Assembly (NCBI GenBank): GCA_019429405.1
Contig: JAHYIZ010000003.1
Span: forward strand, 1-64,000
Direction: 5' to 3'
From: Paracoccaceae bacterium
GTDB lineage: Bacteria; Pseudomonadota; Alphaproteobacteria; Rhodobacterales; Rhodobacteraceae
DNA: 64,000 nt
How positions within the stretch are numbered: the stretch's first letter is position 1; each line of letters opens with the position of its first letter. Position numbers and translations under genes: made by a program. Positions 5,371 to 52,626 of this stretch are shown here, piece by piece. The notes under the pieces are model-generated. The model had not been told where the DNA came from. It searched no databases and worked only from the letters and a program-made list of their open reading frames with translations.

Positions 5371-8341
5371 TCTGCTTTTCCCCGTCCTTGTCGTAAAACA
5401 CCTGATCGCGGATGCGCGCGCGGATGGTCTTGTCCCCCGCCACGAAGTCGATCTCTTCGCCCATGCGTTCCGGGCCGCGCGCAACGAGGCCCATGGCGAT
5501 GCCGCGCCCGAGCGTGGGCGAGAAGTAGGTCGAGGTGACGCGGCCTTGGGTCAGGCGCTGACCGTTTGCGTTGACCCCCGGCGCCGGCGCCAGCACGCCA
5601 TCGGGCAGCACCGAGCCGTCAAGCGTTTCAAGGCCCACAAGTTTCCAGCGGTCGGGGTTGGTCATGTGGGCGCGCTCTTGCGCGCGTTTGCCAAGGTAAT
5701 CGGGCTTTTTCTTCGAGATCGCCCAGCCAAGGCCGAGGTCTTGCGGAATCACCGTGCCGTCGGTTTCATCGCCGATCATGATGAAGCCCTTTTCGGCGCG
5801 CAGCACATGCAGCGCTTCGGTGCCGTAGGGCATGGCGCCGAGATCGGCCCCCGCTGCAAGGCAGGCATTCCAGAAGGCGAGGCCGTGGCTCGCGGGCACC
5901 GCCACCTCGTAGCTGAGCTCGCCCGAGAACGAGATGCGGAAGACGCGGGCGGGGATGCCCGCCAGCGTGCCCTCGGCGAAGGCCATGAAGGGCAGCGCCT
6001 CGCGCGAGACATCCAAGCCGCCAAGCCGTTGCAGCAGTTCGCGCGCGTTGGGGCCGACAATCGCGATTTGCGCGAATTGTTCGGTCAGGTTGGCGGTGTA
6101 GACCTGCCAATCCCACCATTCGCATTGCAGCCAGTCTTCCATATGGGCGTGGATGCGGTCGGCGCCGCCGGTGGTGGTGTGGCAAAGCCAGGTGTCGTCG
6201 GCCAGCCGCACCACAACGCCGTCATCCATCAGAAAGCCGTTTTCAGAGCACATCAGCCCATAGCGGCATTTGCCGACGGGCAGCGTGGACATGACCCCGG
6301 TATAGAGCATGTCAAGAAAACGCCCGGCATCGGGGCCTTTGACCACGATCTTGCCCAAAGTCGAGGCATCGAGCAGGCCGAGGTGCTGGCGGGTGTTGGT
6401 GACCTCGCGCATGACCGCCTGCGTTTGGGTTTCGCCCGCGCGCGGGTAGCAATAGGGGCGCCGCCAGAGGCCCACGGGTTCCCAATGCGCGCCGTTGGCC
6501 TCGTGCCAGCCGTGCATCGGGGTGCGGCGCAGGGGCTGGAAGATCTCGCCGCGCGCCTCGCCCGCAATGGCGCCAAAGCTGATCGGCGCGTAGGGCGGGC
6601 GGAAGGTGGTGGTGCCGGTGGCCGGGATCGGCTGGCCAAGCGCGTCGGAAAGGATCGCGAGGCCGTTGATATTGCTCATCTTGCCCTGGTCCGAGGCCAT
6701 GCCGAGCGTGGTGTAGCGTTTGGTGTGCTCGACCGAGACATAGCCCTCGCGCGCGGCCAGCTGCACGTCGGAAACCTTCACGTCGTTCTGAAAGTCGAGC
6801 CACATCTTGGCGCGCAGCGCAGGCGGCGCGCCTTGCGGCATCATCCAGACCGGCTGCATCGGCGCCTCGGGCGGCGCGCTGGCCTGCGGCGCGGGGCCGG
6901 TGCCGCCGCCTGCGGCATGGGCACCTTCAAGGCAGTCGTGTGCCTGCAAGGCGCCCGAGGCAGCACCTGCGCAAGCCACAAAGGGCTGGCCGTCAGCCCC
7001 GGTGGGGGCGCGGGCGGGGTCGGGGGTGAACATGCCATTTGCCGCATCCCACGCAAGTTTGCCGCCGGGTTGCGAGAAAAGGTGCACCACGGGTGAAAAG
7101 CCGCCCGACATTGCCACGCAATCACAGGCGATGGTTTCGAGCTCCGCACCCTCGCCTGCCTGCGCGCAGACCTGCACCGCGCGCACCCGCTTGCCGCCCT
7201 TGACCTTGGCGATACCGCGCCCTTCGAGCACGCGAATGCCACGGGCGCGGGCCATGTTCGGCAATTCGCCCGAGGCGGTGGCGCGCGCATCAAGGATGGC
7301 GGGCACCACAAGCCCCGCATCAAGCAGCGCCAGCGCGGTGCGGTAGGCGTCATCGTTGTTGGTCACGATCACCGTGCGGTCGCCGGGGCTGACCGCGAAG
7401 TTCACCACATAGTCGCGCGCGGCGCTGGCGAGCATGACGCCGGGAATGTCGTTGCCGGCAAAGGCCAGCGGGCGCTCGATGGCGCCGGTGGCGGCGATGA
7501 TGCGCCGCGCGCGGATGCGCCAGAGTCTGTGGCGCGGCAGATCGGCGCCGGGCAGATGGTCGGCTACCGATTCCTGCGCGATCACGAACCCGTGGTCGTA
7601 AACGCCCGCCACCATGGTGCGGCGGCGTAACGTAACGTTGGGCATGGCGCGGAGCGTCGCGAGGGCTTCGGCGACCCAGGCATCGGCAGGCTTGCCGTCA
7701 ATCGCAACTCCATCGACCGGGGCGCGCCCCCCCCAATGCGCGGTTTGTTCGAGCACCAGCACCCGCTGCCCGCCCTGCGCTGCAGCAAGCGCTGCCGTCA
7801 GCCCCGCAATACCGCCCCCGGCGATGAGAACATCGGTGAAATCATAGGCTTGCTCATAGCGGTCGGCATCGGGTTCGGCCGGGGCCTTGCCGATGCCAGC
7901 CGACAGGCGCACGACCGGTTCATAGAGGTGTTTCCACGCGAAACGCGGGAACATGAAGGTCTTGTAGTAAAAGCCAGCGGGCAGGAAACGCGCGAAAAGG
8001 GTGTTGAGCGCGCCGACATCGAGGGTGAGGCTTGGCCATGCGTTCTGGCTGACCATGGCGGCATCGGCGAAAAGCTCGGTCGTGGTGGCGCGCTGATCAG
8101 GCTCGTGGCGGGGGCCTTGCCCGAGGCCCACCAGCGCGTTCGGCTCTTCAACCCCGGCGGCAAGGATGCCGCGCGGGCGGTGGTATTTGAAGCTGCGGGC
8201 GATCATCATCTGGTCATTGGCGAGCAGGGCGGCGGCGAGCGTATCGCCCGCGTAGCCGCGCAGGGCGCGACCGTCGAAGGTGAAGCCGAGGGGTTTGGTG
8301 CGGTCGATCAGGCGGCCGCCGGTGGCGAGACGGGTGCTCAT
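5363..8341 (-). CDS. soxA: Sarcosine oxidase alpha subunit
   Basis: 992-aa SoxA, the usual full length. The N-terminus carries the ferredoxin-like region (FDGRALRGYAGDTLAAALLA), then an NAD/FAD-binding module starting near residue 170 (LIAGGGIAGLTAALAAAQGG). The C-terminal third is a GcvT-like tetrahydrofolate-binding domain (LGLLDASTLGKIVVKGPDAG; MPYGTEALHVLRAEKGFIMI). The heterotetramer oxidises sarcosine to glycine, with peroxide and 5,10-methylene-THF as co-products. The gene abuts soxD directly (8341/8342) and overlaps soxG. The operon links glycine-betaine and creatine breakdown with one-carbon metabolism. Confidence 0.94.
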   Translation of the reverse strand: MSTRLATGGRLIDRTKPLGFTFDGRALRGYAGDTLAAALLANDQMMIARSFKYHRPRGILAAGVEEPNALVGLGQGPRHEPDQRATTTELFADAAMVSQNAWPSLTLDVGALNTLFARFLPAGFYYKTFMFPRFAWKHLYEPVVRLSAGIGKAPAEPDADRYEQAYDFTDVLIAGGGIAGLTAALAAAQGGQRVLVLEQTAHWGGRAPVDGVAIDGKPADAWVAEALATLRAMPNVTLRRRTMVAGVYDHGFVIAQESVADHLPGADLPRHRLWRIRARRIIAATGAIERPLAFAGNDIPGVMLASAARDYVVNFAVSPGDRTVIVTNNDDAYRTALALLDAGLVVPAILDARATASGELPNMARARGIRVLEGRGIAKVKGGKRVRAVQVCAQAGEGAELETIACDCVAMSGGFSPVVHLFSQPGGKLAWDAANGMFTPDPARAPTGADGQPFVACAGAASGALQAHDCLEGAHAAGGGTGPAPQASAPPEAPMQPVWMMPQGAPPALRAKMWLDFQNDVKVSDVQLAAREGYVSVEHTKRYTTLGMASDQGKMSNINGLAILSDALGQPIPATGTTTFRPPYAPISFGAIAGEARGEIFQPLRRTPMHGWHEANGAHWEPVGLWRRPYCYPRAGETQTQAVMREVTNTRQHLGLLDASTLGKIVVKGPDAGRFLDMLYTGVMSTLPVGKCRYGLMCSENGFLMDDGVVVRLADDTWLCHTTTGGADRIHAHMEDWLQCEWWDWQVYTANLTEQFAQIAIVGPNARELLQRLGGLDVSREALPFMAFAEGTLAGIPARVFRISFSGELSYEVAVPASHGLAFWNACLAAGADLGAMPYGTEALHVLRAEKGFIMIGDETDGTVIPQDLGLGWAISKKKPDYLGKRAQERAHMTNPDRWKLVGLETLDGSVLPDGVLAPAPGVNANGQRLTQGRVTSTYFSPTLGRGIAMGLVARGPERMGEEIDFVAGDKTIRARIRDQVFYDKDGEKQNV

Positions 8342-40815: not shown

Positions 40816-41235
40816 TCAGCGCCAGTTTTCAACCAAGGCGCGCAGCAGATCGGCGCGGCTGATCTGCCCGACAAGCTGGCCTTCGTGCAGCACTGGAAAG
40901 CGGCGGTAGGGGCTGGCCAGAAACCGTTCGACCGCCGTGACCAGGTCGAGATCGACATCCAGCGTATCAACCGGCGTTGACATGTGGCGCGCCACCGGGC
41001 TGCCCCATTCCTGATGATAGGCGGCATGCAGGGCCGCGCGCAGACAGTCTTTCTTTGAAAGCACCCCGACCAGTGTGCCTTCGGCATCGACCACCGGCGC
41101 ACCCGAGATCCGCTTTTCCAGCAGCACGGTCATGGCGTGCAGAATTTCCATTTCGGGGCGCAGCACGATCAGCTCGGTGGCCATGTAGTCACCCACCCTT
41201 GGCCGCGCGCTGCCGGGTGTGGTTGGCGCGGTCAT
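40816..41235 (-). CDS. Tandem CBS-domain protein in the nqr operon
   Basis: 139-aa protein made of two CBS motifs: VGDYMATELIVLRPEMEILH with RISGAPVVDAEGTLVGVLSK, and VARHMSTPVDTLDVDLDLVT with RRFPVLHEGQLVGQISRADL. CBS pairs bind adenine nucleotides and often tune enzymes or transporters. It overlaps the nqrM stop (ATGA) and is the last gene of the nqr run, so it may sense adenylate or NAD state for the sodium pump. That link is by position only. Confidence 0.85.
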   Translation of the reverse strand: MTAPTTPGSARPRVGDYMATELIVLRPEMEILHAMTVLLEKRISGAPVVDAEGTLVGVLSKKDCLRAALHAAYHQEWGSPVARHMSTPVDTLDVDLDLVTAVERFLASPYRRFPVLHEGQLVGQISRADLLRALVENWR

Positions 41236-41414: not shown

Positions 41415-42383
41415 CTACCCGATGATGCGCGCCGAAAACCCGGCGGTGGTGATTTCACGAAACGCCGCGCCGTTGCGCAGCACGAACAGCGCGGCAATGT
41501 TGGCCGCGCCGGCAAAGGCCGCGCCGCGTTCCGGCCCCATCGCGAAGAGGGCCGTTGCCATGGCGTCGGCCATGGTGGCACTAGCGCTAAAGACCGAGAC
41601 CGAGGCTAGCGCGCTTTGCGCCGGCGCGCGCGTGGCGGGGTCGATGATATGGCCATAGCGGCGCCCGCCGTGGCTGTACCCGTTGACCCGGTCGCCCGAG
41701 GTTGCCAGCGCCTCGCCCGCAAGCTCTACCACGCGCAGCACCGCGCTGCCTGTCGCATCGGGGCGTTCAACGCCTGCCCGCCAGCGCCGCCCGCCGGGGT
41801 GCAGGCCGCGCGCCTGCACCTCGCCGCCCAGTTCCACAAAGAAATCGGTCAGGCCAAGCGCCTCCAGCGCCGCGACGATCCGGCCAAGGGCATGCCCCTT
41901 GGCAATGCCGCACAGATCAAGCGTGAGGTCGGGGCGCATTTTGCGCAGTGCGCCCTCATGCAGGGCGATGTCGGCATGGCTGCCGCCGCTGAGCCGCGTT
42001 ATCGGCCCAAAACCGTAGCGCCCCACCAGCCCGCCCACGGTCGGGTCGAAGGCGCCGCCGCTTTGCTGCGCCACCGCCAGCGCCACTTGCACCGTCGCCA
42101 GCGTCTCGGGCGATAGTGCTTGCCAGTCGGTGCTGTCAGAGCGGTTGAACCGCGCCACCTCCGACGCCGGGTTGAAGGGCGACATCGCCGCATCAACCGA
42201 GGCCACGATGGCGGTGACCGATGCGGCGATGGCGCCGGTGTCTGCCCCGGCGGGCACCGTGATCTGCCAGCCCGCGCCAAAGGCCGGGCCTTGCAGCACC
42301 AGAAGGTCGGGCGCGGCATGAAGCGGCCCGGCCAGCAGCGCCGCCCCGGTTCCGGCCAGAAATCCTCGCCGCGTGCACCCCAT
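41415..42383 (-). CDS. apbE: FAD:protein FMN transferase
   Basis: 322-aa ApbE that attaches FMN by a phosphoester to Thr/Ser of flavinylated proteins such as NqrC and NqrB. A Tat-like or Sec signal (TRRGFLAGTGAALLAGPLHA) directs it to the periplasm. Family motifs include ASVDAAMSPFNPASEVARFN, FDPTVGGLVGRYGFGP, LDLCGIAKGHALGRIVAALE, ELGGEVQARGLHPGGRRWRAG (split here) and GHIIDPATRAPAQSALAS. It sits between nqrF and nqrM, the expected place. Confidence 0.92.
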   Translation of the reverse strand: MGCTRRGFLAGTGAALLAGPLHAAPDLLVLQGPAFGAGWQITVPAGADTGAIAASVTAIVASVDAAMSPFNPASEVARFNRSDSTDWQALSPETLATVQVALAVAQQSGGAFDPTVGGLVGRYGFGPITRLSGGSHADIALHEGALRKMRPDLTLDLCGIAKGHALGRIVAALEALGLTDFFVELGGEVQARGLHPGGRRWRAGVERPDATGSAVLRVVELAGEALATSGDRVNGYSHGGRRYGHIIDPATRAPAQSALASVSVFSASATMADAMATALFAMGPERGAAFAGAANIAALFVLRNGAAFREITTAGFSARIIG

Positions 42384-42386
42384 TGC

Positions 42387-43610
42387 CTAGCCTCCGAAAT
42401 CGTCGTTGAAAATGTGGTCGGCATCGACCCCCAGATCATCCAGCATCGCCAGCACCGCCCGGATCATCATTGGCGGGCCGCAAAGATAATAGTCGCAGGC
42501 CTCGGGCGCGGGATGGTCGGCCAGATAGCGGCGCGCCACGACCTCATGCACAAAGCCGGTTTCGCCATGCCAGTCGTCGCCGGCGGCGGGGTCGGAAAGG
42601 GCCACGGTCCAGCTGAAATTGGGGTGATCGGCCTCAAGCCGGTCGAATTCGTCCTTGTAGAACAGATCGACCTTGCTGCGCGCGCCATACCAGAAACTGA
42701 TCTTGCGCGGGGTGCGCTTGACCAGCAGTTGATCGGAAATGATCGCCCGCAGCGGCGCCATGCCGACACCGCCGCCGATGAACAGCATCTCGCGGTCGCT
42801 CTCATGCGCGGCAAAACTGCCGAACGGCCCGGCCAGCCGCACCCTGTCGCCCGCCTTGACCCCGAACAGCCACGATGACACCACCCCCGGCGGCGCGCCC
42901 GGCCTGTCGGGGGGCGGCAGCGCCAGACGGACCAGCAGCACGATGCAGCCGTCGCCGCTTTCTGGCGTGTTGGCAATCGAATAGGCGCGCGCGGTGGCGG
43001 TGTTGCTGACCGAGGCAAGCGCGCGCAGCCCCATCGCCTCCCACGCTGCAAGATGTTCGGGCGCAATGTCATAATCGGCATAGCGCAGCGCATAGGCCGG
43101 CGCGGTGATCTGCACGAAGGCGCCGGGGGTAAAGCTGAAATCGGCGTCGTCGGGCAGCGCCAGCACGATCTCGCGGATCAGCGGCGCCACGGTGCGGCTG
43201 CTGACCACCGTGCAGGCCCATTCCTGCGCCGAAAGCAGGCTTTCGGGCAGCGTTAGCGCCATGTCGCCACGCAGGCTGACCTGACAGGCAAGGCGCACCC
43301 CGTCACGGATATCGGCGCGGCTAAGCAGCGCCGCCTCGGTGGCAAGTGCGCCGCCGCCGCCCTCGGTCACCGTCACCCGGCACTGGCCGCAACTGCCCGC
43401 GCCGCCGCAGGCAGAAGGGATTGTCACCCCCGCCTCGGACAGCGCCCCCAGCAGCTTGCCGCCGAGCGGCGCCTCAATGTCGTGCCGACCGTTGACCCGG
43501 ATCGACACCTGCCCCGTAGGCAGCAGCACCGCGCGCGCGCTTAGCACCAGCACCACCAGCACCAGCACGATGGCAACAAAGACCAGACTGCCCAGCCAGA
43601 TTTCGGTCAT
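42387..43610 (-). CDS. nqrF: Na+-NQR subunit F (NADH dehydrogenase)
   Basis: 407-aa NADH-oxidising subunit. An N-terminal helix ([20 protein letters not shown]) is followed by a [2Fe-2S] domain with Cys68, 74, 77 and 109 ([16 protein letters not shown]). The FAD domain ([20 protein letters not shown]) and NADH domain ([40 protein letters not shown]) follow, ending in NDDFGG as in Vibrio. NADH electrons enter the sodium pump here. It overlaps nqrE by 4 bp. Confidence 0.95.
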
Positions 43611-44209
43611 GGCGACGGCACCCCCACAAAGGCCGAAAACCCCATCGACATCAGCCCGGTGACCACGAAGGCCAGCCCCAGGCCCCGCAATCCCTGCGGC
43701 GCGTCGGCATAACGCAGCCGTTCGCGGATGGCGGCGAAGGTGACGATCGCCAGCGCCCAGCCAATGCCGCTGCCCGCCCCGTAGACCATGCTTTCGGGCA
43801 GGCTCAAGCGGCGTTCCACCATGAACAGGCTGCCGCCCAGAATGGCGCAATTGACGGTGATCAGCGGCAGAAAGATGCCGAGCGCGCGATGCAGCGCGGG
43901 GGCATAGCGGTCAAGCGTCATTTCAAGGATTTGCACGATGGCGGCGATGACACCGATGAAGGATATCAGCTTCAGAAAGCTCAGGTCCACTTCGGGCAGG
44001 CCCAGCCAGCCCCAAGCGCCCTCAATCAGAAATCCCTGAAAGATCATGTGGTTGATCGGCACCGTGATGGCCTGCACCACGATCATCGCAAGCCCCAGCC
44101 CCAGTGCCGTTTCAACCCGTTTTGACACCGCCAGAAAGGTGCAGATGCCCAGAAAGAATGACAGCGCCAGATTTTCGGCGAAGATGGTGCGCAAGAACAG
44201 CTCGGTCAT
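43607..44209 (-). CDS. nqrE: Na+-NQR subunit E
   Basis: 200-aa membrane subunit with six helices. It begins [20 protein letters not shown] and contains [16 protein letters not shown] with the cysteine region (ICTFLAVS) that with NqrD holds the intramembrane iron centre. The second cysteine is in [20 protein letters not shown]. Length and motifs match NqrE. It overlaps nqrD and nqrF by 4 bp each. Confidence 0.94.
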
Positions 44210-44859
44210 CGCGCCACCTCCTGCCTGCCGGTGCGCAGCACAAACTCGTCAGGTTCGGCCTGACCGGGGCGCAGGCTGCGGATCGCCCAGACCATGCCGC
44301 CGATGATGAAAAAGGCCGATGGCGCCAGCAGCATGAACCCCAGCGGCTGAAACCACCCCCCCGCCGCGACGGTCGGCAGAACCTGCACCCCAAAGAGCGC
44401 GCCGGTGCCAAGCAATTCGCGCAAGAACGCGACGATCAGCAGCACCAGCGCATAGCCCAGCCCGTTGCCCAGCCCGTCAAGCAGGCTTGGCCAGACCGGG
44501 TTGCGCATGGCGTAGGATTCTGCCCGCCCCAGCACCAGACAGTTGGTCACGATCAGGCCAACGAAAATCGACAGCCGCTGGCTCATCTCATAGGCGAAGG
44601 CGCGCAAGACCTGATCGGCCACGATCACCAGCGAGGCGATGATGGTGATCTGCACCACCAGCCGGATTGATGCCGGAATATGGCGGCGGATCAGGCTGAT
44701 CACCACGCTGGAGGCAACCAGAACCGCGATCAACGCAAGGCTCATGGTCAGCGCGGTGGCCATGGCGGTGGTCACGGCCAGCGCCGAACAGATGCCCAAT
44801 ATCTGCACGGTAATCGGGTTCTGGTCGATCAGCGGGGCGGTTAGCGGGGTTTTGCGCAT
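44206..44859 (-). CDS. nqrD: Na+-NQR subunit D
   Basis: 217-aa membrane subunit with about six helices. It shows [20 protein letters not shown] (first cysteine) and [20 protein letters not shown] (second cysteine), the inverted-topology partner of NqrE. The tail (EEFVLR-like [15 protein letters not shown]) extends beyond Vibrio NqrD by a few residues. Overlaps nqrE, and 1 bp separates it from nqrC. Confidence 0.94.
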
Positions 44860-44860
44860 G

Positions 44861-45658
44861 TCACTCTTCCCCTGCTTTCAGGCGCGCCAGAAACGGGCCA
44901 AAGCCCTCGGCCCCGAGCCAGAACCCGACCAGATTGCTGACCCCGGTGCTGGAGCGGGTGGCGCCTGTGATGCCGTCCACCTCGAACGCGCTGGTGGCGG
45001 TGCCGCGCACCACGCGGATCACCACGTCGCCTGCCGCATTGGCAACCTGCCGCCCAGCCCAAAGGCCGGTCCATTCGGGGTTGGTGATGCGGGTGCCGAT
45101 GCCGGGGGTTTCGCCCTGTTCATGTATCGTCAGCGCGGCGATGGTGTTCAGATCGCCTTCGAGCGCAAGAAACGCGCGGATCGTCGATTGATAGCCGGTG
45201 CCATAGACCGGCAGCACCACCAGCGCCAATCCTTCGGGGCCGCGCAGCAGGTAGACCGGGGCGCGGTTGGGCCGTCGCCCGATGCCGGCGGTGTCGGCCT
45301 CGGGCGGCAGGGCGGTGCTTTGCGCGGGGTCGGTTTGCGCCGCGACATAGTCGAACGCGGCGGCATCGGCGCCGCGCTCGATCATGCCCGTGCGCAGATC
45401 GACAAGCACGGTTTGCAGCGACTGGGCGCCGCTGGCGCGCAAGATCTCGTCAAGCCCCGGCAGCGCCGCGACCATCGCCGCCAGATTGGCCGCGCGCGCC
45501 GCCACCAGATGCGCTTGCTGGCGCGGCTTGAGCAAAACCGACGTGACCGAAACCGAAGCGGCGCAGACCAGCGCCACCAGAAAGGCAACGCCCAGCGTCT
45601 TGATGCGGCTTTCGTTCGGCAGGCCGAGGAAACGGCGCCAGAGCGTGCCTTCAGCCAC
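44861..45658 (-). CDS. nqrC: Na+-NQR subunit C (flavinylated)
   Basis: 265-aa periplasmic FMN-carrying subunit anchored by an N-terminal helix ([20 protein letters not shown]). The flavinylation motif is intact: [20 protein letters not shown], with Thr234 the predicted FMN-phosphate acceptor (S/T-G-A-T rule). The FMN_bind body includes [20 protein letters not shown] and [18 protein letters not shown]. It is the target of the ApbE encoded in the same operon. Confidence 0.94.
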
Positions 45659-46478
45659 GGCGCCCCCTCCTTTGCCGAACGTTGACCCAGACCACGCCCT
45701 GATCGATCAGCGGCGCGAAGATGCCCGCCAGCAGTGCCGCGAAAACCAGCGCATGCAGCGCCCCGGCGCCCGATGTGCCCAAGCCCACCACCAGCCCCCC
45801 AGCCAGCATGCCGTAAAGCCAGCGCCCCGGATTGGTCGATGCGCTGGCAACCGGGTCGCCGATTGCAAATACCAGCGCCAGCACGAGGCCCGCGCCGATC
45901 AGCGCCGCAAAGCCGAAGGGCGGCGCCAGCAGCAGCACCATTGCCAGCACGCCAAACCCGAAGCCGACGACGATGCGCCATGAAAGCACACCCACCACCA
46001 GCAACAAAAGCCCGCCCGCAGCCGCCGCCGTGGTCAGCACCGGTATCGGCGCCGCTGCGGGCGGGGCGGGAAAGGAAAACAGCAGGAAGGCCAGCGCAAC
46101 CACGGCGGGGCTGAGAAAGTTGCGCCCGCGCCCGCCAAACACCTGCTCGCCCAAGACCACCCCGAACGACAGCGCGACCGCCTGCTGCCAGAGCGGCACT
46201 GCCTCGGGCACAAGCAGCACGAACAGCACCGCACCCGGCACCCCGTCCCAGCCAAAGCCCCGGCGGCGCAGCAGGGCAAATATGGCCGGCCAGCCAAGGG
46301 CGATCAGCAGCGCCAGCGCCAGCGGTGCCAGCATCAGTGTGCCGCGCGCCTGCAATGCTGCCGCCAGCGGCAGCGCAAGCGCCAGCGCCGTCAGCGCGGT
46401 GATGCGGTTCGCATCCCACAGGCCCGCGATCTGCACCGCGTTGTCGCCGCTGGGCGGGGCAGGTCTGTGCGCGCTCAT
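45651..46478 (-). CDS. nqrB: Na+-NQR subunit B, shortened
   Basis: 275-aa membrane subunit, much shorter than the roughly 415 aa of Vibrio NqrB. Core motifs are recognisable: SFGVVLGEQVFGGRGRNFLS, PAVVALAFLLFSFPA, GVLSWRIVVGFGFGVLAMVL and AIGDPVASASTNPGRWLYGM. The first 100 or so residues of the long form are missing. The DGxSGAT flavinylation motif that should follow FFAYPA is replaced by PPAAAPIPVLTTAAAAGG. This subunit is therefore unlikely to carry covalent FMN, though it may still bind riboflavin and quinone. Overlaps nqrA by 4 bp and nqrC by 8 bp. Confidence 0.88.
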   Translation of the reverse strand: MSAHRPAPPSGDNAVQIAGLWDANRITALTALALALPLAAALQARGTLMLAPLALALLIALGWPAIFALLRRRGFGWDGVPGAVLFVLLVPEAVPLWQQAVALSFGVVLGEQVFGGRGRNFLSPAVVALAFLLFSFPAPPAAAPIPVLTTAAAAGGLLLLVVGVLSWRIVVGFGFGVLAMVLLLAPPFGFAALIGAGLVLALVFAIGDPVASASTNPGRWLYGMLAGGLVVGLGTSGAGALHALVFAALLAGIFAPLIDQGVVWVNVRQRRGRRG

Positions 46479-47734
46479 CGCGTGCCCTCCTCGTCCAGTT
46501 CGGTCAGCACCCCGCGCAGCAGCGCGCCGTAATCGGCGCGACCGGGGCAGAGCCATGTAAGCAGCGCAAGGTCTTCCTCAAGCAGCTCAAGGCAGCCCAG
46601 CCGCGCGGCGGTTTCGACATCGCCCACGGCCAGTGCCCGCATCAGCGGCGCCGGCAGGATCGCCAGCGGCATCGCCCTGTCAAACGCCTCAAGCGGCAGC
46701 GTTGCGCCGGCGGGCGCGGCCGGCAACCAGTCGAGCCAACGGTGCCAGAAGGGGCGCGCTGCAATCTTGTCGCCGTGCAGGACGGTCACTTGCGTGTCGC
46801 GCCGCCCGAGGTAGGCCGCCTCGCGCCCCGACAGCACCGAGCCTGAAATCAGCCGCACACTGTCGCCGCGCGTCTGCCCGACCAGATCAGCCAGATGCGC
46901 GCCGAGCGGTGCTGCCACCAGCGCAGGCGCCTCCATGCCCGGACCGGCAAGCGAAACCACTCTGGTTGCCAGCACCTGCCCGGTGGCCAGCAGGTGGCCG
47001 ATCGCGGCGACCTCCTGATAGCCGACCTGCCAGACCTGCGCGCCCGCCCCGACCGGCATCAGATGGTGGATATGGGTGCCCGCCAGCCCCGCCGGGTGCG
47101 GGCCTTCGAAGGTCGCAAGGCGGATGCGCCCGGACTGCGGCACTAGCGCCGCACCGGGCGCCTGGCAAACGAACACCGGCCCGTCCGTCAGCCGGGCCAG
47201 CGCATCGAGGCCGCGCGCGAAGGCATCGCCCTGCGGCGCCAGCACCGCGCGCGCGTCGGCGGCCAGCGGGTTGGTGTCCATTGCCGTCACGAAAATCGCG
47301 TCAGGGCTGGCCGCCGGGTCAGGAATATGGCCGAAGGGACGGGTCAGAAACGCGGTCCAGGCGCCGCTTTGCAGCAGCAGGGCGCGCAGCGCCGCCGCAT
47401 CGGCCAGCGCAGGGCGCGGATCAAACGCCATTGGTTCGGCGGCCCCGGCATCGACCGCGATGATCAGCGCATCAATGCTGCGGCGCGGGCCGCGCGTGAT
47501 GCCGGTGATGCGCCCTGCGGCGGGCGATACCACAGCAATCTCGGGGCGGCGGCGATCAACAAAGACGGTCTGACCGGGTTGCACCGCATCGCCAATTGCG
47601 ACCCTCAAATCGGCCTGCACAGCCGGATAATCGCGCCCCAGCACCGCAACCGAAGCGACGTCACGCGGCGCGGGCTCGCCCCGCGGGGCCGCGCCCATGT
47701 CGATGTCGATACCCTTGCGCAACCGGAAATGCAC
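46475..47734 (-). CDS. nqrA: Na+-NQR subunit A
   Basis: 419-aa soluble subunit, first gene of the operon. It begins at a GTG (VHFRLRKGIDIDMGAAPRGE), which fits the NqrA start MIKIKKGLDLP; the next ATG is 12 codons inside that motif. It contains VAVLGRDYPAVQADLRVAIG, SPAAGRITGITRGPRRSIDA and the family end CLELLEEDLALLTWLCPGRA ... YGALLRGVLTELDEEG. The promoter should lie in the 196-bp divergent region shared with the cytochrome gene. Confidence 0.92.
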   Translation of the reverse strand: MHFRLRKGIDIDMGAAPRGEPAPRDVASVAVLGRDYPAVQADLRVAIGDAVQPGQTVFVDRRRPEIAVVSPAAGRITGITRGPRRSIDALIIAVDAGAAEPMAFDPRPALADAAALRALLLQSGAWTAFLTRPFGHIPDPAASPDAIFVTAMDTNPLAADARAVLAPQGDAFARGLDALARLTDGPVFVCQAPGAALVPQSGRIRLATFEGPHPAGLAGTHIHHLMPVGAGAQVWQVGYQEVAAIGHLLATGQVLATRVVSLAGPGMEAPALVAAPLGAHLADLVGQTRGDSVRLISGSVLSGREAAYLGRRDTQVTVLHGDKIAARPFWHRWLDWLPAAPAGATLPLEAFDRAMPLAILPAPLMRALAVGDVETAARLGCLELLEEDLALLTWLCPGRADYGALLRGVLTELDEEGTR

Positions 47735-47930
47735 GCCACAGGCCCCCGAATGACCGCGCCCCGCACCACGCCGAATGCCAGACCAAACCCGGCAGGGAAT
47801 CGCCGCTTCGGCGCGCGGGGCCTTTGCGGCATGGTCGCATGGGTTTGCGACCCGGCCTATGACCTCGATCAAGGCGTGGAACGGTGCTGGCTGCTATGGT
47901 TGCAAAGTCGCGTTACTGAGGGTGAGCAAA

Positions 47931-48290
47931 ATGAAAGCGCACACAGTTTTTGCGGCGGCGTTTGCGGCGTTTGTGGTGTTCGCCGCGTCAGGCGCCGGGG
48001 TTTCAGCGCAGGTCGCGCTGGATATTCACAGCGCGTTGGGTGTGGACTGCACCGATTGCCATGCCGAAGACCCGCCGCTGCTGGCCCCGCCAGACGCGGT
48101 TTGCATCGCCTGCCACGGCACCATGATTGATGCCCCGCCACCGGTCGCATTGCCCGGCCCCGACCCGCACCGCTCGCCGCATCTTGGCCCGCGCGAAGTG
48201 CCGGTTTGTGCCGAATGCCACCGCATCCATCGCCCCTCGGAAGTCAGTTGCGCTATCTGCCACCAGGGGTTCGAGTTCAACTTCAAGTGA
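47931..48290 (+). CDS. Periplasmic tetraheme cytochrome c
   Basis: 119-aa secreted cytochrome with a signal peptide (residues 1-26, ending GAGVSAQ). It has four CXXCH heme sites: C40-C43-H44 (CTDCH), C58-C61-H62 (CIACH), C93-C96-H97 (CAECH) and C107-C110-H111 (CAICH). Spacing and size resemble the N-terminal heme domain of Shewanella flavocytochrome FccA, here encoded separately from the flavoprotein that follows 47 bp later. It is divergent from nqrA. It probably carries electrons to the flavoprotein in the periplasm; the membrane donor is not in the window. Confidence 0.9.
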   Translation: MKAHTVFAAAFAAFVVFAASGAGVSAQVALDIHSALGVDCTDCHAEDPPLLAPPDAVCIACHGTMIDAPPPVALPGPDPHRSPHLGPREVPVCAECHRIHRPSEVSCAICHQGFEFNFK

Positions 48291-48337: not shown

Positions 48338-49810
48338 ATGTCAAAAACGTATCATGTGAACGTCAGCCGCAGGGCCGTGCTCGCAGGGGCCGGCGCCGGC
48401 GCGGGCCTGATGGGAATGTCAGGGGCGACACTTGCCAGTGTCAGCCTGCTGCCCGCGCCCGACACATCTGAAACCTACGACGTGGTGGTGATCGGGTCGG
48501 GCATCGCGGGTTGCGCCGCCGCCTTGCAGGCCGCCGAAGCGGGCGCCAAGGTGGTGCTGCTCGAAAAGATGCAGAGCCTCTGGATGGGCGGCAACTCGCT
48601 GCTGGCGGGGGGCGGCTTTGCAATGCCGCTTGAAGCCACCGAGGCCAGCCGCCGCGTTTTCGTCGAGGAATACGAGGCCTATTGCCTCGGGCGCGGCAAC
48701 AGCATGATCTTCAAGCTGATGGCCGAAAACATTGACGATGACCTGGCGTGGTTGCAGGCGAACGGCGTCGCCTTCGAGGCGCCGACCCCTTGGCCGCCGA
48801 ACCAGATCCGCATGGCGATTGCGTCGCCGGGGTTCTTTTCCGGGATGCCGCATGTGTTTCGCCGCATGCGCACCCGGTTGCCAGAGCTTGGCGTGGAGCT
48901 ACGGTTTGAAACCAAGGCGCAGCAACTTGTCATGAACGACGCCGGCGCGGTTGCCGGTGTGCGCGCGGTCGGGCGCGCAGGTGTGGTTGACTACCTCGGC
49001 AAATCGGTGGTGATCGCCACCGGTGGCTATGCGGGCAACACCGCCCTGCTTGAGGCCTATTCCGACCCCAACGCCGGGGCGATGATGGTGCGCGGCATCA
49101 AGCACGCCACCGGCGACGGGCTGTTGATGGCGCAGCAGGCGGGCGCCGGGCTGAAAGGCATGGGCGGGCTGATGGCGCTGCACATCGCTGCCGTCGACGG
49201 CGTAGAAACCGCCGCCGGGCAGCCCGCGAGCGTCGTGCCCCATGCGATCAGCATCAACCGCGAGGGCAAGCGCTTTGTCGATGAATCAAAAGGTTATGTG
49301 AACCACGGCAAGGCCGTGCTGAACCAGCCCGGTCAATCGACATCGCTGGTATTCGACCAGACTCTGCGCGACAGCGTGGCCGAGGGGGTGATGACGACCT
49401 TCGCCCGGCTGGGTCTGACCGTGCATCAGGCGGAAACGCTGGAAGGCCTTGCCGCGCTGATCGGGGTGCCCGAAGCGCAGTTCGTGCAAACAGTGGCCGA
49501 ATTCAACGCTGCTGTGGTCGGTAACGCGGCACCGGGGGCGACGCCGCCCAAGGAAATGCTGGCCAATCGGATCGAAACCCCGCCGTTCTATGCCTTCAGC
49601 CCGCTGGTGCCGGGGATCACCCTGACCTTCGGCGGCATCATGATCAACGACCGGGCGCAGGCGCTGGAAGCCGACGGCAGGGTCATTCCCGGCCTTTTTG
49701 CGGCGGGCGAAGGTGCGGGGGCTGCGTTCTTCCATGACTACATCGGCGGTGGCTCGCTGACGAATTGCCTGGTCATGGGGCGGATCGCCGGGCGGCAAGC
49801 CGCCGCTTAG
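48338..49810 (+). CDS. Tat-exported FAD-dependent oxidoreductase (flavocytochrome catalytic subunit)
   Basis: 490-aa flavoprotein of the fumarate reductase/succinate dehydrogenase flavoprotein superfamily. A Tat signal (SRRAVLAGAGAGAG, residues 10-23) precedes the FAD fold (DVVVIGSGIAGCAAALQAAE near 48; LLEKMQSLWMGGNSLLAGGG). The C-terminal GGIMINDRAQALEADGRVIP leads to HDYIGGGSLTNCLVMGRIAG. By eye alignment with Shewanella FccA, the proton-donor Arg402 becomes Tyr (DESKGYVNHGK), His504 becomes Thr and Arg544 becomes Tyr. It should therefore not reduce fumarate. The HDYIGGG end is closer to TcuA-like dehydrogenases. AAGGAGG precedes the ATG. Confidence 0.86.
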   Translation: MSKTYHVNVSRRAVLAGAGAGAGLMGMSGATLASVSLLPAPDTSETYDVVVIGSGIAGCAAALQAAEAGAKVVLLEKMQSLWMGGNSLLAGGGFAMPLEATEASRRVFVEEYEAYCLGRGNSMIFKLMAENIDDDLAWLQANGVAFEAPTPWPPNQIRMAIASPGFFSGMPHVFRRMRTRLPELGVELRFETKAQQLVMNDAGAVAGVRAVGRAGVVDYLGKSVVIATGGYAGNTALLEAYSDPNAGAMMVRGIKHATGDGLLMAQQAGAGLKGMGGLMALHIAAVDGVETAAGQPASVVPHAISINREGKRFVDESKGYVNHGKAVLNQPGQSTSLVFDQTLRDSVAEGVMTTFARLGLTVHQAETLEGLAALIGVPEAQFVQTVAEFNAAVVGNAAPGATPPKEMLANRIETPPFYAFSPLVPGITLTFGGIMINDRAQALEADGRVIPGLFAAGEGAGAAFFHDYIGGGSLTNCLVMGRIAGRQAAA

Positions 49811-50913: not shown

Positions 50914-51059
50914 TGTTCGGGCAAGGCGGGCCGGTGAAGGTCTACGCGGCGACGCGCCCCGTTGATTTTTGCAAGGGCATCGATGGCCTGGCGCTTGCGG
51001 TGCAGGAGATGTTCGGGCTGGGCCCGTTCTGCGGGGCGGTCCCTCGCCATGGGGCTTGA
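50913..51059 (+). pseudogene. tnpB: IS66 tnpB, frameshifted
   Basis: 48 codons begin MFGQGGPVKVYAATRPVDFC then KGIDGLALAVQEMFGLGPFC, the TnpB signature, and stop early. The remainder (RADRIKLLVWDQTGMVLVHK, 51093-51155) continues in another frame and FVWPQVQGGVM in a third. At least two indels have broken the gene. Intact TnpB is about 115 aa. Confidence 0.78.
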
Positions 51060-51177
51060 ACCAGTGGCGCACCATGGCTCGATATTCCGCCCAAAACGGG
51101 CCGACCGGATCAAGCTGCTGGTCTGGGACCAGACGGGCATGGTTCTGGTTCACAAGCGGCTGGAGGGGGGCCAGGTT

Positions 51178-52315
51178 CGTCTGGCCGCAGGTGCAGGGCG
51201 GGGTGATGCGGGTGCAGGCGCATGCCCCCGAGCATGTCGTGCCCGGCGGTCTGCCCACGGAGCTGTTCATCGCCTGGATCATCGTTGCGAAATTCGGCGA
51301 CCATCTGCCGTTCTATCGGCAAGCCGAAATCTTCAAGCGGCAGGGGATCGATCTCGACCGCGGCACGCTCGGCAACTGGGTCGGCCGCGCCTGTTTCCAC
51401 CTGATGCCGATCATCCATCACATGAAGGCTCATTTGCGCGGTGCAGACCGCATCTTCGTGGATGAGACCCGCGCGCCAGTGCTGGAACCGGGTCTGAAAC
51501 GCACCAAGAGCGGCTACTTCTGGGCCGTCGTGTCCGACGATCGCGGCCATGGCGGCGCCGGCCCACCCATCGTGCTGTTCCACTACGCCCCCGGCCGGGG
51601 CAAGGAGCATCCGCTGAAGTTCCTCGCCGGGTATCAGGGCCGCTTCCTGCAATGCGATGCCTATCAGTCCTACAACGCGATGACCGAGATCGCGCGCGAC
51701 AACGGGCCGTGGCAGCTGGTCTATTGCTGGACGCATGTGCGCCGCCGCTTCGTGAAGCGCTTCGAGAGTGACGCCTCCCCCATCGCCGAAGAGATGCTGC
51801 GTCAGATCGCGCTGCTCTACCAGATCGAGAAGACCGTGCGCGGCACGGATGCGAACGTGCGCCTTGCCGCCCGGCGTGAGCATTCCGCCCCGATCATCGC
51901 GGCGCTGAAACCCTGGCTGGAAGCCCAGCTCTCGCGCATCCCGCAGAAATCTCAGCTGGCCGAGGACATCCGCTACACCCTCGCGCACTGGTCCGGCCTG
52001 ATCCGTTTCCTTGAGGATGGCACCATCGAGTTGGACACCAACCCGGTTGAAAACCAGATCCGCCCGATAGCCCTCACAAGAAAAAATGCGCTCTTCGCGG
52101 GCAACGAGATCGGCGCCGAGAACTGGGCCATGCTCGCCTCGCTGGTCATTCGTCGGAACAACAGCGCCCCACGCTGTCGTTTTTTCCGCCTCATCCTGCA
52201 AGATGGCAGACGTGAGCCGGGTCAACTACATCGCAGCCACGCTGCGTGCCATCCTCGACGGCCATCCCAAAAGCCGCATCGACGAACTGATGCCGTGGCA
52301 CTTCGATCAGCCGGT
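51178..52315 (+). pseudogene. tnpC: IS66 transposase tnpC, N-terminally deleted and frameshifted
   Basis: The transposase core reads in one frame from VQAHAPEHVVPGGLPTELFI through FVDETRAPVLEPG, CWTHVRRRFVKRFE and TNPVENQIRPIALTRKNALF. About the first third of TnpC (leucine zipper and zinc finger) is missing. At about 52150 the frame leaves the family sequence; the expected continuation (CKMADVSRVNYIAATLRAIL, DGHPKSRIDELMPWHF) is found in another frame after about 50 bp. DDE residues may persist, but the protein cannot be full length. Confidence 0.8.
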
Positions 52316-52316
52316 A

Positions 52317-52626
52317 GGCACGAGTTCGACCTGCTCTGCGCCGACCTTGGCATCGAACACCGCCTCGCCCCGCCTGCGCACCCGCAGACCAACGGCATGG
52401 TCGAGCGCTTCAACGGCCGTATCGAGGAGGTGCTTCAATCGCACCACTTCCGCTCGGGCGAAGAATTGCAAACCACGCTGCACCGCTATGTGGCTCTCTA
52501 CAATCAGCAGCTGCCCCAGTCTGCCTTGGGCGGCAAAGCGCTCTTGCAGGCGATGAAGACCGGCACAAACTGAAGCCGGAGCTGTTCAGAAAACAGCCTT
52601 ACTACCTTCCGGGATGTGACAACTAG
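52317..52626 (+). pseudogene. IS481-family transposase C-terminal remnant
   Basis: HEFDLLCADLGIEHRLAPPA, HPQTNGMVERFNGRIEEVLQ and LYNQQLPQSALGGKALLQAM belong to the integrase core of IS481-type transposases. The normal end HKLKPELFRKQPYYLPGCDN is found in a different frame after a one-base loss near 52557 and stops at 52624-52626. By chance the fragment reads on in the IS66 tnpC frame. Confidence 0.75.

Follow-up and report, generated by a model that had tools for sequence, protein, structure and literature searches.

A lineage of short NqrB without the covalent flavin site, linked to periplasmic heme proteins, and its possible role in an NADH-to-periplasm route

In V. cholerae, electrons pass through Na+-NQR from NADH via the FAD and 2Fe-2S cluster of NqrF, the 2Fe-2S cluster of NqrD/E, the FMN of NqrC and the FMN and riboflavin of NqrB to ubiquinone; both quinone and quinone-site inhibitors are bound by the N-terminal stretch of NqrB (PMC9325719, PMC12174285). 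An nqr operon in the window, which is the 64,000-nucleotide stretch of Paracoccaceae DNA analyzed here, raises the question of where electrons leave such a complex when NqrB has no site for its covalent FMN. The first-pass annotation of this operon described an NqrB of 275 aa without the DGxSGAT motif, together with an NqrC carrying ITGAT and an ApbE, and proposed that a working complex would be short of one covalent FMN or would reroute its electrons. These observations proved correct and the proposal gains support below; to these are added the loss of the quinone site and of the insertion between TM1 and TM2 in NqrB, a cytochrome partner, and the lack of a detectable NqrM.

The window operon and its short NqrB

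The operon is on the minus strand at 42.4-47.7 kb of the window, in the order nqrA-B-C-D-E-F and then apbE, and the features of the locus are as follows.

41415..42383, minus strand: apbE, FMN transferase
42387..43610, minus strand: nqrF, with 2Fe-2S, FAD and NAD domains
43607..44209, minus strand: nqrE, in which both Cys that ligate the intramembrane 2Fe-2S cluster are present
44206..44859, minus strand: nqrD, in which both Cys that ligate the intramembrane 2Fe-2S cluster are present
44861..45658, minus strand: nqrC, with the flavinylation motif ITGAT
45651..46478, minus strand: nqrB, short form, 275 aa, with the NqrB core fold but without the FMN loop, the N-terminal quinone stretch and the TM1-2 insertion
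46035..46079, minus strand: FSFPAPPAAAPIPVL, codons at the junction where, in the alignment, long NqrB has ~44 aa more, DGxSGAT among them
46475..47734, minus strand: nqrA, 419 aa, C-terminal part divergent and shortened, with a probable GTG start by homology
47735..47930, no strand: intergenic region between the divergent nqrA and cytochrome genes
47931..48290, plus strand: periplasmic tetraheme cytochrome c, with four CxxCH, Cytochrom_c3_2 and a Sec-type signal by eye
48338..49810, plus strand: flavoprotein, fumarate/urocanate-reductase- and TcuA-like, bearing by eye a twin-Arg signal and proposed as the tetraheme cytochrome's terminal partner

The divergent spacer at 47735..47930 yielded no sigma-70-like site. 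A CBS-domain protein is encoded directly after apbE (40816-41235, minus strand), and members of the same cluster occur near 10 further short-form operons and near a single long-form locus. A long transposase-like ORF, which by eye has the look of an IS66-type element, is located slightly over 1 kb past the flavoprotein gene (50969-52573, plus strand).

The short NqrB is a homologue of PF03116 (118 bits) and scores 131 bits against the NqrB model, the cut-off of which is 414. The start of its gene overlaps the nqrA stop as ATGA, so that no missing residues are encoded upstream, and this overlap, together with the same structure in its relatives, rules out a frameshift or a missing upstream piece. 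Assignment of the protein as RnfD was also considered and is ruled out by the presence of NqrF and NqrA and by NqrD/E/F, which pass the NQR cut-offs in profile searches; the iron-sulfur subunits RnfB and RnfC, a feature of Rnf, are absent from the window operon, which encodes NqrF and NqrA instead. A second NqrB/RnfD homologue, long form included, was not found in the 2.86-Mb genome to which the window belongs, where the short NqrB is the sole one.

Alignment with long NqrB reveals three gaps in the window protein: the N-terminal stretch is largely missing, the insertion of ~45 aa that long NqrB has between helices 1 and 2 is absent, and after FSFP the FMN loop, a segment of 44 aa with DGFSGAT, is gone. 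All 34 short NqrB that could be aligned show the same three gaps. T236 is missing in 34/34. It had been considered that the residues might be restored by a frameshift or replaced by an SGAT-like acceptor elsewhere, and neither was found in the window NqrB, in which [ST]GAT does not occur; the only alternative acceptor-like motif among the aligned short NqrB is a TGAT at residue 234 of a single homologue (L038). Mutation of Gly140/141 in NqrB abolishes the interaction with ubiquinone (PMC4014512). Gly140 is kept in 0/34 short NqrB, being replaced by A, V, I, S, L or T, and Gly141 is kept in 9/34. Judged from this alignment, short NqrB has neither the covalent flavin site nor the known quinone site. 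Conservation of the riboflavin ligands is partial (D346 in 32/34, T162 in 24/34, N200 in 21/34 and N203 in 17/34; in the window protein N200 and D346 are retained, T162 is replaced by G and N203 by S), and hence a flavin may still bind to NqrB.

The predicted structure of the short NqrB (pLDDT 88) superposes on NqrB 8a1x_B over 261 residues with an rmsd of 2.9 Å (Z 29.5) and on RnfD with a Z of about 27, and the DP/TNxGR core and GGxG are almost invariant among short NqrB. As modeled, the protein is an NqrB in which the core is retained and the loops are trimmed. Short-form operons also retain the flavinylation Thr of NqrC, the four Cys of NqrD/E and the FeS, FAD and NAD features of NqrF, and identity to the long forms is 0.53-0.58 for NqrD/E, the best conserved subunits, and 0.27 for NqrB. 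The statement in the first-pass annotation that all other nqr genes plus nqrM are intact holds for the rest of the operon, which is open and conserved, but not for nqrM: NqrM (Pfam PF04400) is matched neither in the window genome nor in the 32 short-only genomes examined, and a regular expression for NqrM-like Cys patterns matched only senseless frames. PF04400 is found in six of the seven genomes with a long NqrB.

Phylogeny, distribution and selection of the short form

The short form is present in 36/295 genomes of the same family, mostly one per genus, three of the 36 being cut by contig ends or decayed. Short and long NQR occur together in at least two genomes, G125 (L037 and L069) and G099 (L053), both of which have NqrM. 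Outside the family, no match of short-form strength (E < 1e-30) was seen in 398 genomes across the phylum, plasmids yielded no full-length short form, and 289 genomes of the class gave one short-form match in another family (G896, locus L124). This alphaproteobacterium has a short-form nqrBCDEF-apbE without nqrA (L124:8863-14373), and no NQRA_2nd match was found anywhere in its genome.

Whether the short form is a clade was answered in the same way by all four trees. Compared with 18 long-form operons from several families, the short-form operons form one clade in the trees of NqrC+D+E+F, NqrD+E, NqrF and NqrB, with FastTree local support of 0.988, 0.956, 0.91 and 0.625, respectively. In pairwise comparisons, nqrB has a dN/dS of 0.24-0.27 and the operon as a whole spans 0.07-0.48, values that indicate purifying selection on the short-form operon. 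Monophyly and purifying selection together argue that short nqrB is functional and old, and, on the sequences compared, the short NqrB is a lineage trait rather than a local deletion. A decaying or misassembled gene could be read from two loci, L035, with a broken operon, and L122, with stops, and in both of these the gene of the pentaheme cytochrome described below is also broken (stops or fragments), as if the two had been lost together. The intact operon of the window, in which the other redox ligands are kept, the clade-wide conservation and the dN/dS of nqrB speak against this; alignment, selection and trees refute decay, which deserves next to no credence, and the earlier impression of an operon that is not decayed was right.

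Heme proteins linked to the short-form operon

Neighbor clustering identified a secreted pentaheme cytochrome of ~390 aa, with five invariant CxxCH motifs and EF-hand-like loops, the gene of which is divergent from nqrA in 37 of the 43 intact short-form loci and in none of the 18 long-form loci. Across 196 genomes of the order, 24 contain both short NqrB and the pentaheme cytochrome, one (the window genome) only short NqrB, six only the pentaheme cytochrome and 165 neither (Fisher p = 4e-24, a value inflated by shared ancestry, which makes it overstate the independence of the genomes). In all six pentaheme-only genomes, the gene is divergently adjacent to one whose product joins a membrane domain of the Ferric_reduct family (PF01794) to FAD_binding_8 and NAD_binding_1 (pairs in L114-L119, e.g., L115:8574-10070, minus strand, and L115:10056-11270, plus strand). 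Such an NAD(P)H oxidoreductase, of the ferric-reductase type, is normally an outward reductase, and the pairing of one cytochrome with two unrelated transmembrane NAD(P)H electron movers is the strongest argument for the route proposed below. The predicted model of the pentaheme cytochrome is poor (pLDDT 70), and hence its weak fold matches to two reductases, OcwA (the best, E 0.005) and NrfA, are a lead only.

Six intact short-form loci have no adjoining pentaheme gene, namely the window, L033, L034, L036, L041 and L124. In the first three, a tetraheme cytochrome and a flavoprotein are encoded in the same divergent position, and because these loci fall inside the cytochrome-bearing part of the short-form clade in the tree, they have probably swapped one heme partner for another. 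In L036 an EB_dh-family heme protein adjoins the operon, and in L124 a tetraheme gene (6928-7524, minus strand) is located ~2 kb upstream of it. In L041, an intact locus, none of the neighbors of the operon is a heme protein, and the genome gave no pentaheme match. No close pentaheme homologue was found in the window genome; its contig C27 encodes a six-heme protein that is a distant pentaheme relative (L132:510-2006, minus strand, E 2e-11), which is also found in G012.

Among the 295 family genomes, the window flavoprotein was found only in its own genus. It matches UrdA and Fcc3 with E about 1e-49, its best NCBIfam match is TcuA, a dehydrogenase, and its flavo_cyto_c score of 240.8 is below the cut-off of 285.45. 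In L034, from the same genus, the flavoprotein gene lies at the end of a contig and appears split into three fragments (L034:143-1200), representing either a pseudogene or sequencing errors.

A proposed outward route and its alternatives

From the losses in NqrB and the linked heme proteins, short-form NQR is probably a transmembrane NADH:periplasmic-cytochrome oxidoreductase, an outward route in which electrons would exit at the FMN of NqrC and not at quinone. We infer that NADH would be oxidized by NqrF (FAD, 2Fe-2S), that the electron would cross the membrane at the 2Fe-2S cluster of NqrD/E and reach the FMN on the periplasmic NqrC, where it would be attached by the ApbE of the operon, and that NqrC would pass the electron to a dedicated periplasmic heme protein, which is the pentaheme cytochrome in most members. 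In the clade of the window the chain would run from NADH through NQR, the tetraheme cytochrome and the periplasmic flavoprotein of the fumarate/urocanate-reductase type to an organic acceptor. NqrB, with neither FMN site nor quinone site, would offer no return path to quinone but would persist in the membrane as a subunit; if Na+ or H+ is pumped at all, the ions would then have to pass through NqrD/E. Of the two outcomes originally foreseen for a working complex, rerouting is the better option because the quinone site has also been lost and the operon is linked to dedicated heme proteins of the periplasm. It is conceivable, if on balance slightly doubtful, that such complexes form a third class of Nqr/Rnf pump, quinone-independent, NADH-driven or reversible, with a half path from NqrF via NqrD/E to NqrC, exchangeable periplasmic heme acceptors and a non-redox NqrB.

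Electrons could also flow in reverse, with the periplasmic heme proteins as donors and NqrC to NqrF driving electrons uphill to NAD+ at the expense of the ion gradient, and Rnf does run both ways (PMC12174285). The pentaheme cytochrome could act as such a donor, and the best match of the window flavoprotein is, as noted, to a dehydrogenase. However, the other partner of the pentaheme cytochrome belongs to a type that normally works outward and the weak fold matches of the cytochrome are to reductases, which makes reverse flow unlikely. Alternatively, the complex might still be an NADH:quinone oxidoreductase if the FMN of NqrC entered the emptied FMN site of NqrB and electrons continued to riboflavin and quinone. 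Direct transfer of this kind has been proposed for two-gene Nqr/Rnf-like complexes, which also provide the precedent of NqrB/RnfD-like proteins without a flavinylation site (PMC10979944), and it would agree with the partial conservation of the riboflavin ligands. Nevertheless, none of the 34 aligned short NqrB retains the quinone-site stretch or Gly140, the linked cytochromes would be left unexplained, and complex I is present in 21/21 genomes tested, the window genome included, so that short-form NQR is not needed as a quinone-reducing NADH dehydrogenase; quinone reduction is thus distinctly improbable.

The near invariance of the DP/TNxGR core and GGxG could instead reflect a flavin that is bound to NqrB non-covalently or on another residue, in a complex with some other task, such as redox sensing or the maturation of another enzyme, as RSX does for SoxR, and the related RSX has a non-respiratory role (PMC12174285). 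Short-form operons are, however, linked to periplasmic heme proteins and not to regulators, and the chance of such a function seems very small.

The outward route to a periplasmic cytochrome, which remains the preferred reading, has partial parallels in known systems. With its six subunits in the same order, the redox ligands of NqrF/D/E/C, ApbE and the NqrB fold, the complex resembles Na+-NQR of the V. cholerae type (NqrABCDEF), from which it differs by the missing covalent FMN and quinone sites of NqrB, the undetected NqrM and the linked heme protein. It belongs to the Nqr/Rnf superfamily but, since two defining features of Na+-NQR are absent (FMN-NqrB and the quinone site), it is not filed as an NADH:quinone reductase. 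The two-gene Nqr/Rnf-like systems also have an NqrB/RnfD-like subunit without a flavinylation site and a proposed one-way export of electrons from NAD(P)H (Meheust 2021; Huang 2024; PMC8238504, PMC10979944), but in these NqrB is fused to an NAD domain and NqrD/E and a separate NqrF are lacking, whereas the window operon has six subunits, an NqrB that is only PF03116 and a separate NqrF. In the Rnf of M. acetivorans (MmcA) and Desulfovibrio, a multiheme cytochrome c is likewise encoded with the Nqr/Rnf core and electron exchange is proposed (PMC6703419, PMC4287179), although with RnfB/RnfC and ferredoxin in place of the NqrF and NADH of the window operon. The flavocytochrome c and urocanate and fumarate reductases of Shewanella are similar in that the flavoprotein of the window has UrdA and Fcc3 among its matches and a tetraheme cytochrome as its pair, and different in that the heme and flavin parts in the window are separate proteins and the score is below the flavo_cyto_c cut-off. 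The open-access papers searched contained no earlier account of an NQR without FMN-NqrB or of the cytochrome linkage. Automated annotation would probably label the short-form complex an ordinary NADH:quinone reductase; if the proposed route is true, many Rhodobacteraceae-type genomes would possess a direct respiratory route from NADH to the periplasm.

The passage of Na+ is disputed between NqrB/RnfD (Hau 2023, PMC10643135) and NqrD/E (Kumar 2025, PMC11889175), the latter study concluding that RnfD only transfers electrons. The residues of NqrB proposed to form the Na+ path by Hau 2023 are mostly lost from short NqrB (E157 kept in 0/34, E273 in 2/34, D52 in 9/34, F338 in 15/34 and F342 in 17/34). 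The short-form lineage separates the two models, in that these NqrB sites are lost yet NqrB is always kept, and NqrD/E are the most conserved; if the short form still pumps, the NqrD/E model would be strongly supported, and this natural variant could help to settle which subunit pumps. The window genome also has, besides nuoD, a second, distant Complex1_49kDa match (C61:62034-62492), possibly part of a hydrogenase-like or Mrp-linked complex, which is found in G012 as well.
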